Positions 27,218 through 29,588 of a DNA stretch of 64,000 bases are shown here, in pieces. Position 1 is the first letter of the stretch. Each line of letters begins with the position of its first letter. A model generated the notes under the pieces. That model worked only from the letters and a program-made list of their open reading frames with translations, did not search any database and was not told where the DNA came from. The stretch lies in the NCBI GenBank assembly GCA_947259505.1, contig CAMYLT010000003.1, positions 248,001 to 312,000 on the forward strand, in the 5' to 3' direction. Made by a program: the position numbers and the translations under genes. Source of the DNA: an uncultured Porticoccus sp. (GTDB lineage Bacteria; Pseudomonadota; Gammaproteobacteria; Pseudomonadales; Porticoccaceae).

Positions 27218-27595
27218 TCAATCGAGTCGCTCAGCGGGACCGTGCTCAATTACCCGTGAAGACTGCGCAGTTAAAACACGGCAGGCAGTCAGCAAATTGA
27301 TGAGCGCGTGTCCTACGTGCTGCTCCGCCAGTGCCAGTTCCCGGTTGGCGATCATCTCTCGTTCCTGCTTGCTCAAATTGGCCGGATCTCCTCCCAGCTC
27401 GTTGTCAATGCGGGACATGATTTGTCCCATCATCATTTGCGCCTCGTCTCGAGATTGATGCATGTCCGACGAAAAATTTTTCATCAGGTAGGGCAGGTCT
27501 CGCATGGCCTGTACCGTGTTCTTGGTGTTGCGGATGGCCAGCCTGGCAGGAAGCATTGAGATGTTGAAGCCGGCGGAGAGAAGTTCAGCAATCAT
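27218..27595 (-). CDS. Hypothetical protein, about 125 aa
   Basis: ORF with M at 27595 (MIAELLSAGFNISMLPARLAIRNTKNTVQAMRDLP...). Confidence 0.6.
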   Translation of the reverse strand: MIAELLSAGFNISMLPARLAIRNTKNTVQAMRDLPYLMKNFSSDMHQSRDEAQMMMGQIMSRIDNELGGDPANLSKQEREMIANRELALAEQHVGHALINLLTACRVLTAQSSRVIEHGPAERLD

Positions 27596-27732
27596 CAAAC
27601 AAACGCTCCTATTGTGAAACATAGAGGCATTAGGGTAGCGCAGCCGACATCTGGCGTCGAGTGCAATGAGAAGAATTGTCGTGGTGTCGTTGGGTGATCC
27701 CTGCTGGCCCTGGAGCCAGCAGGACCCAGCGG

Positions 27733-27837
27733 TCAGGCAATGGCTACAGCAACAGCAATCAACACGAACATCACACCGACGCCTAGCAAGACCAGCTTGC
27801 CCACTCTGCCCAAGGTTGCAGTATCTTCTGCTAGCAT
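27733..27837 (-). CDS. 34-aa single-TM micro-protein (not in supplied ORF track)
   Basis: ATG preceded by CGGAGGTAGATAAAA; translation MLAEDTATLGRVGKLVLLGVGVMFVLIAVAVAIA*. Confidence 0.6.
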   Translation of the reverse strand: MLAEDTATLGRVGKLVLLGVGVMFVLIAVAVAIA

Positions 27838-27905
27838 TTTTATCTACCTCCGATAATTGGAAGTGCAAGAATAGGAGGGAGTTTGAATAAGGTTATTGAT
27901 CCAGA

Positions 27906-29588
27906 TCAATTGGGCTGGTTGGCGAGTTCCAGCAGCTCGCGGGCGTGATTGAGGGTGGTTGCGGTGATGGTGCTGCCACCCAGCATGCGAGCGATCTCGC
28001 CAATCCGCTCATCTTCCTGAAGCCGATGGATATCACTGTGGGCTGAGTCTGCCCCGGTTTGCTTGGTGACTCGCAGCTGATGGTGGGCACAGGCGGCCAC
28101 TTGGGGTTGGTGGGTCACGCAGATGACTTGCCCTCCACTGCCTAGTTCCCTTAGCAATCGGCCCACTACTTCCGCTGTGGCGCCACCAATACCTACGTCC
28201 ACTTCGTCAAAGACCAGGGTTGCGATAGTGGAGTGACGAGCTGCAATGACTTGAATCGCAAGGCTGATGCGCGACAGTTCGCCGCCCGAGGCAATCCTGG
28301 CTAACGGCTTAGGGGGTTCACCGGGATTAGTGGCGATCAGAAACTCGATATTTTCCAGGCCATGGGCTGAGGGATTGGTCGGGTCGATCGGCGTGAGGTT
28401 GACGACGAAACGGGCGCCTTTCATAGACAGGGACGAAAACTGTTGCTCAACCAGCACTGATAATTGTTTGGCCGCTTCGTTGCGGACTTGGCTGAGCTCA
28501 GTAGCCTGGTTTTGATATTCGAGCAGCAATTTATCGGCCCGCTGCTGCAGCGCCTCCAGGTTATCGGTGCCGCCAGTGAGTTGATCCAGCTCTGCCTGTA
28601 GGGCGCGCTGTTTTTCCAGTAGCTCTTCCGGGTTGATACGGTGTTTGCGTGCCAGTTGGTAGATGGCGCTGAGTCGTTCCTCTATTTGCTGGAGTTGTTC
28701 AGGGTCCAGTTCGAAGCTGTCCAGATGATGCTGGATTTCCCGCCCGGCTTCTTCTACCTCAATCAGCGCGCTGTTGAGTAGCTTTTCTACCTCCTGAAGT
28801 GCAACAGGTTTGTTGGGCATGCTCCCCAGCAGGTGCATTGCTCTGCCCAGTCCATCCTGCAGGTTAAAATCATCGCCATCTCTGCACAGCTGTATCAGAG
28901 CGTGGCTGTCGCGGAGTATGGCTTCGGCATTCGAGAGTAGCTGTTGCTGTTCCTCCAGGCGTGGCAGCTCGCCTTCCATGAGAGCCAATTGACCCAGCTC
29001 CTCGAGCTGGAAGCCCAGCAGGGCTTTGCGGGCCTCGAGTTCATCGCTGGCACTGGCCAATTTCTGGGCTTGTTGATGGGTGCTGGACCACTGTTTATGT
29101 GTGTCGCGGAGGGTGTTTGCCAAGGTGGTGCACGCAGCAAAGTCATCCAGCATCTGGCGGTGACTGTCGCGGCGAAGCAGGGATTGGTGCTCATGCTGGC
29201 TGTGGATATCCATGAGCATTTCGCCGAGTTCTCGCAACTGCTGCATGGTGGCGGGCTGACCATTAATGTAGCCCCTTGAACGACCTTCTCGCGTCAGGAT
29301 GCGGCGCATCAGACAGTCATTGCCATCGGGCGCAAAGTCATTGTCGGTCAACCATTCTGCAGCGGCAGCACTTTGTGCGATATCGAATAGGGCGGAGACT
29401 TCTGCGCGATCCTGTCCTTGGCGAATCCGGTCGGTATCGGCGCGATCTCCCAGGGCCATGGACAGGGCGTCAAGCACCAGAGATTTGCCAGCGCCGGTTT
29501 CCCCGGTTAGGGCTGTCATACCGTTGCTGAAGTCCACTTCGAGAGACTCCACCAGAGTGAAATTCTTGACTGTCAGGCTGGTTAACAA
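27906..29588 (-). CDS. recN: DNA repair protein RecN
   Basis: MLTSLTVKNFTLVESLEVDFSNGMTALTGETGAGKSLVLDAL; C-terminal LVFDEVDVGIGGATAEVVG. Confidence 0.97.
   Translation of the reverse strand: MLTSLTVKNFTLVESLEVDFSNGMTALTGETGAGKSLVLDALSMALGDRADTDRIRQGQDRAEVSALFDIAQSAAAAEWLTDNDFAPDGNDCLMRRILTREGRSRGYINGQPATMQQLRELGEMLMDIHSQHEHQSLLRRDSHRQMLDDFAACTTLANTLRDTHKQWSSTHQQAQKLASASDELEARKALLGFQLEELGQLALMEGELPRLEEQQQLLSNAEAILRDSHALIQLCRDGDDFNLQDGLGRAMHLLGSMPNKPVALQEVEKLLNSALIEVEEAGREIQHHLDSFELDPEQLQQIEERLSAIYQLARKHRINPEELLEKQRALQAELDQLTGGTDNLEALQQRADKLLLEYQNQATELSQVRNEAAKQLSVLVEQQFSSLSMKGARFVVNLTPIDPTNPSAHGLENIEFLIATNPGEPPKPLARIASGGELSRISLAIQVIAARHSTIATLVFDEVDVGIGGATAEVVGRLLRELGSGGQVICVTHQPQVAACAHHQLRVTKQTGADSAHSDIHRLQEDERIGEIARMLGGSTITATTLNHARELLELANQPN

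Follow-up and report, generated by a model that had tools for sequence, protein, structure and literature searches.

The window analysed here, a 64,000-nucleotide stretch from the genome of an uncultured Porticoccus sp., carries a 34-residue ORF that, judging from its sequence, is a real gene lying below ordinary annotation cut-offs and has an FNR/Anr class II promoter of its own. Very probably, the product is an FNR-driven membrane microprotein. Taken as a whole, our proposal is that of an FNR/Anr-activated inner-membrane microprotein acting as a factor for a low-oxygen respiratory complex, with the cbb3 oxidase as the best candidate, and to this we assign a probability of about one half. Those parts that are read from sequence comprise the gene and its coding constraint, the architecture and conservation of the promoter, the FNR/Anr homologue, and the FNR boxes that precede respiratory genes. 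Small respiratory subunits are routinely missed, and here a sub-cut-off gene is conserved across Gammaproteobacteria, one that moves freely around genomes yet retains its exact oxygen-sensing promoter. For marine bacteria, it offers a candidate new component of microaerobic respiration, and one that can be tested.

Table 1. Features of the microprotein locus and of other loci in the same genome. Positions are those of the window unless a locus is named.
Feature	Position	Strand	Remarks
recN (ORF)	29588..27906	minus	upstream neighbour; 3' end carries the FNR box
FNR/Anr box TTGATCTGGATCAA	27909..27896	minus	perfect match to TTGAT-N4-ATCAA; overlaps recN stop codon (27908-27906)
-10 element TATTCT	27868..27873	minus	22 nt after FNR box; class II spacing
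Shine-Dalgarno CGGAGGT	27852..27846	minus	8 nt 5' of ATG
Microprotein gene, 34 aa	27837..27733	minus	ATG 27837-27835, TGA 27735-27733
GC-rich hairpin, strong	27700..27724	minus	T run absent; directly 3' of microprotein stop codon
Conserved hypothetical gene, 126 aa (MIAELLSAGF...)	27598..27218	minus	downstream
Exported-looking hypothetical protein, 267 aa	26402-27205	plus	locus-conserved throughout genus
FNR/Anr homologue	L268 828-1523		N-terminal cysteine motif CGDCRMNALC
Own-genome FNR boxes	L182 3098, 11940, 11977 (G000:C5)		one 118 nt before ccoN
Further candidate FNR-regulon loci	L189 1180-1638, L195 1445-1639, L191, L192

The microprotein gene and its relatives

An earlier note, made on this DNA without database searches, had claimed an unlisted ORF at this position that encodes a microprotein with a single transmembrane segment and follows a Shine-Dalgarno sequence. 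The ORF is indeed present, on the minus strand (which the note had left unstated), and translates to MLAEDTATLGRVGKLVLLGVGVMFVLIAVAVAIA, and the Shine-Dalgarno motif was found at the spacing claimed (Table 1). In a single-sequence search of 58 relatives, the gene was present in 14 of the 17 Porticoccus genomes, with the window genome counted, at E values within the genus from 1e-4 to 8e-15, and these homologues share an identical stop position and a length of 33-34 aa. The three genomes of the genus without the gene are the streamlined G001 and G014 (1.2-1.3 Mb) and the incomplete G002. A scan of named genomes with a narrow profile returned mostly Porticoccus MAGs. Moreover, the pooled pS and pN over ten pairs of relatives were 0.33 and 0.07 (pN/pS of 0.22), with synonymous change about five-fold above non-synonymous change and differences by codon position of 41:16:88. 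Overlapping ORFs of 216 aa and 38 aa in other frames had no comparable support from conservation or synonymous bias. An unconserved frame or frameshifts in close relatives had been named as grounds for refutation, and the gene survives this check because its stop and length are conserved and its changes are biased towards synonymous ones. In one MAG with 5% contamination (G012), we observed two copies of the recN-microprotein locus (L003 and L024), which are probably two strains binned together.

For the 34-aa protein, AlphaFold predicted a single helix over residues 2-33 with a mean pLDDT of 90, and the 19-residue hydropathy rises to 3.1, in keeping with a lone hydrophobic helix some 20 residues long; the predicted transmembrane helix extends to the C-terminus. 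Profile searches revealed homologues in the family, order and class. They occupy unrelated loci and span some 15 gammaproteobacterial families, a count in which the assignment of weak members (e.g., G433, G304 and G196) may be wrong and a few low-scoring matches are possibly false; weak profile matches inside long ORFs (e.g., G639 and the G050 group) were excluded. Homologues are some 33-50 aa long and follow the pattern (E/D)D..T...(V/L)G, after which comes a hydrophobic helix that runs up to the stop codon. In the 32-sequence alignment of the family D5 is invariant, and most homologues have a Shine-Dalgarno site; the homologous ORF in G526 is without a standard start codon within the part read. 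Coding constraint, class-wide homologues and the predicted helix thus all support the claim of a single-transmembrane microprotein, and the accompanying label of a regulatory membrane protein is plausible. No Pfam or NCBIfam family scored above its curated cut-off with the window protein, the 32 family members gave only scattered one-member matches to these collections (best E of 0.0015), and profile searches of the PDB with the family gave no credible relative. In our reading, the homologues make up a family that has no name so far, is widespread in Gammaproteobacteria and consists of single-helix, oxygen-responsive membrane microproteins.

An FNR/Anr class II promoter and the surrounding regulon

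Reading along the minus strand, the elements upstream of the gene are arranged in the order TTGATCTGGATCAA, 22 nt, TATTCT, a putative transcription start at about 27861, CGGAGGT, 8 nt, and ATG. With this predicted start, the box is centred at -41.5, as in class II activation by FNR. Here, then, the box, the -41.5 centre with a matching -10 element, and an FNR/Anr protein with N-terminal cysteines are found together in one genome, and they point to a class II promoter that belongs to the microprotein gene itself. The earlier note had named neither regulation nor pathway, and this promoter was missed.

Conservation of the box was scored as at most one mismatch within 250 nt upstream of the gene, and 34 of the 44 initial homologues carry such a box, as opposed to 0.8% of shuffled upstream regions. 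The same is true of 17 of 20 later members, which were detected by the protein profile alone after the rule had been noticed (binomial p of about 1e-28). In total, a box precedes 51 of the 64 homologues versus 13 of 243 neighbouring genes (5%); several of those 13 share the microprotein gene's own box. TANNNT lies exactly 22 nt past the box in 39 of the 51 homologous promoters, with any other spacing occurring at most six times. About one fifth of the homologues are without a good box, and two convincing ones (G244 and G164) have none. Plain searches are unreliable for proteins of 34 aa, and the box with its -10 spacing provides an independent signature for finding members.

The FNR/Anr homologue of the window genome (Table 1) is 56% identical to the FNR that adjoins the microprotein homologue in G039. 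Other FNR boxes of this genome precede ccoNOQP, hemN, a bacteriohemerythrin gene, a usp/nitrate-transporter pair and moaA/nnrS (gene names for the regulon and for neighbours being assigned by inspection of translations), and to judge from its members this set is a typical FNR/Anr regulon. Two of the boxes, close-set in L182, precede a Yip1-like membrane protein gene downstream of the cco-ccoGHIS cluster. The further candidate loci in Table 1 hold genes for a bacteriohemerythrin and a DUF2892-like small membrane protein, moaA/nnrS, and a usp adjoining a nitrate transporter-like gene.

Low-oxygen respiration and the candidate target

Protein and oxygen-responsive promoter are conserved while the neighbourhood is not. 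This makes action in trans, at the membrane and under low oxygen, the most likely mode for the microprotein; the likeliest role, as far as sequence can indicate one, would be to assist, as an accessory factor, the respiratory chain that operates at low oxygen. In the mechanism we propose, falling oxygen would allow FNR/Anr with an intact iron-sulphur cluster to bind TTGATCTGGATCAA, whose centre lies 41.5 nt ahead of the transcription start, and to recruit RNA polymerase to the TATTCT element by class II activation, so that a short mRNA would be made and the 34-aa protein translated from it. The protein probably inserts as one helix, with its N-terminus inside and its C-terminus on the periplasmic side. 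The helix face lined with small residues (G13, G19 and G21) and the acidic N-terminal cap (E4-D5) may pack against a membrane complex, and the packed helix would then promote, in trans, the assembly, stability or activity of a low-oxygen respiratory complex.

As regards the identity of that complex, ccoO (FixO), which encodes a subunit of the cbb3 oxidase, was found in 55 of the 64 microprotein carriers. Within the family, 28 of 33 carriers have it versus 18 of 79 non-carriers (odds ratio of 19), and elsewhere in the class 27 of 31 versus 25 of 49 (odds ratio of 6.5), the p-values of this association being inflated by relatedness. Both genes are absent from the streamlined G001 and G014. On the other hand, ccoO is missing in nine of the 64 carriers where incompleteness predicts about four (p of 0.02), so that cbb3 is no strict requirement. 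Many genomes with cbb3 are also without a detectable microprotein homologue, and the association may merely reflect a common FNR dependence and common ancestry. The cbb3 oxidase is put forward as the best single candidate target at odds of clearly less than even. In the same tentative vein, the FNR/Anr-controlled microproteins across the class might be a hitherto unseen, trans-encoded subunit or assembly factor of the cbb3-type oxidase or of its cytochrome c supply line. They would then, in effect, be a second answer, unrelated to CcoM, to the need that CcoM serves in Pseudomonas.

Alternatively, a membrane microprotein induced by low oxygen could have a target other than an oxidase, be it a transporter, the Ccm machinery of haem/cytochrome c maturation, an enzyme of denitrification or NO metabolism, or the lipid bilayer itself (silencing of growth or metabolism), a real though not a leading possibility. 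The evidence from the promoter holds whatever the target may be, the nine carriers without detectable ccoO fit such a reading, and so do the varied neighbours, since homologues outside Porticoccus sit at unrelated loci with the same promoter retained. Eight of them (L127-L129, L138, L148, L149, L151 and L161, from three families) lie in the ccmB-ccmC gap, antisense and divergent from ccmC; one (L031/L253, in G039) adjoins fnr and hemN, three (L123, L156 and L162) are near uspA, two (L032 and L034) adjoin a phosphatase gene, and one (L251, in G486) sits in a cco/nirK/nnrS island, with htpG also among the varied neighbours. Against a non-oxidase target stand the co-occurrence with ccoO, which is far over background, and the finding that no single neighbour gene is common to the homologues across families; for Ccm in particular, the placement is limited to a few families. 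In the ccm-gap loci, the FNR box sits between the microprotein gene and ccmC, from where it may activate ccmC and its downstream genes as well.

SOS toxins can take the form of small hydrophobic peptides, and a position after recN would be decisive if the gene encoded a toxin-like membrane peptide of a recN operon or the SOS response. In agreement with the earlier note, which had placed the gene between recN and a hypothetical gene on the same strand, both neighbours are on the minus strand, recN 5' and the hypothetical gene 3', and recN lies directly upstream in all genus carriers whose contig reaches that far. The emphasis laid on recN holds within Porticoccus but not across families, where the FNR/Anr promoter is conserved and recN is not. 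An SOS-related peptide is highly improbable given the gene's own FNR promoter and its other loci, with that same promoter, outside the genus, nor did an antisense RNA antitoxin come to notice in passing; the recN operon as a general functional unit is likewise rejected, as the gene's position changes there. On the downstream side, the 126-aa protein has no Pfam or NCBIfam family and is 60-71% identical in part of the genus, while in the remaining members it was not recognised. The 267-aa protein encoded beyond it also has no Pfam or NCBIfam match.

Folding of the stretch 27685-27735, around the hairpin, gave a minimum free energy of -28 kcal/mol (z of -3.6), though the terminator scan did not call this hairpin; it may end the transcript and so yield a monocistronic mRNA of about 165 nt. 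An FNR promoter followed within ~160 nt by a strong hairpin would also suit a small RNA with a fortuitous ORF, a reading made extremely improbable by the synonymous bias, the conserved stop, an amino-acid pattern kept in some 15 families, and the Shine-Dalgarno sites in most members.

Comparison with known small membrane proteins and regulons

In size, single helix and low-oxygen respiratory context, the microprotein resembles the 36-aa CcoM of the Pseudomonas stutzeri cbb3-1 oxidase (PDB ID: 5djq, chain N), which is likewise encoded apart from the cco operon. Homology between the two was nevertheless rejected, as there is no alignable sequence (hhalign probability of 0.7%), and the PDB profile search with the family did not return 5djq_N. 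In CcoM the N-terminus is short and the C-terminal tail basic, whereas members of the microprotein family have an acidic/basic N-terminal cap and end with the helix.

CydX is similarly a one-helix protein of ~30-40 aa in a respiratory setting, and bd oxidases, which are frequently under oxygen control, contain small subunits of a single helix, so that the shared size class might suggest a CydX-like subunit of cytochrome bd oxidase. However, CydX belongs with cydAB, and most microprotein carriers are without cydA: CydA is encoded in only 18 of the 64 (absent in 46) and not in the window genome (G000). Moreover, cydAB was not seen adjoining homologues in the loci read, and the Pfam family of CydX was not matched. 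The absence of CydA largely refutes this reading, which we consider exceedingly unlikely.

The stress-induced single-helix proteins of E. coli (AcrZ, YohP and others) are also stand-alone tiny genes whose products act in trans at the membrane, and we found no sequence match between them and the microprotein. To our knowledge, none of these has an FNR class II promoter conserved in this way throughout a bacterial class, and literature searches found no described FNR-regulated microprotein of this type. In Pseudomonas, the Anr/FNR core regulon includes hemN, azu, cioA and others according to the abstract of PMC6588701, in whose gene list no such microprotein appears. That regulon and the window genome have in common the same box, the same type of regulator and an overlapping target, hemN.
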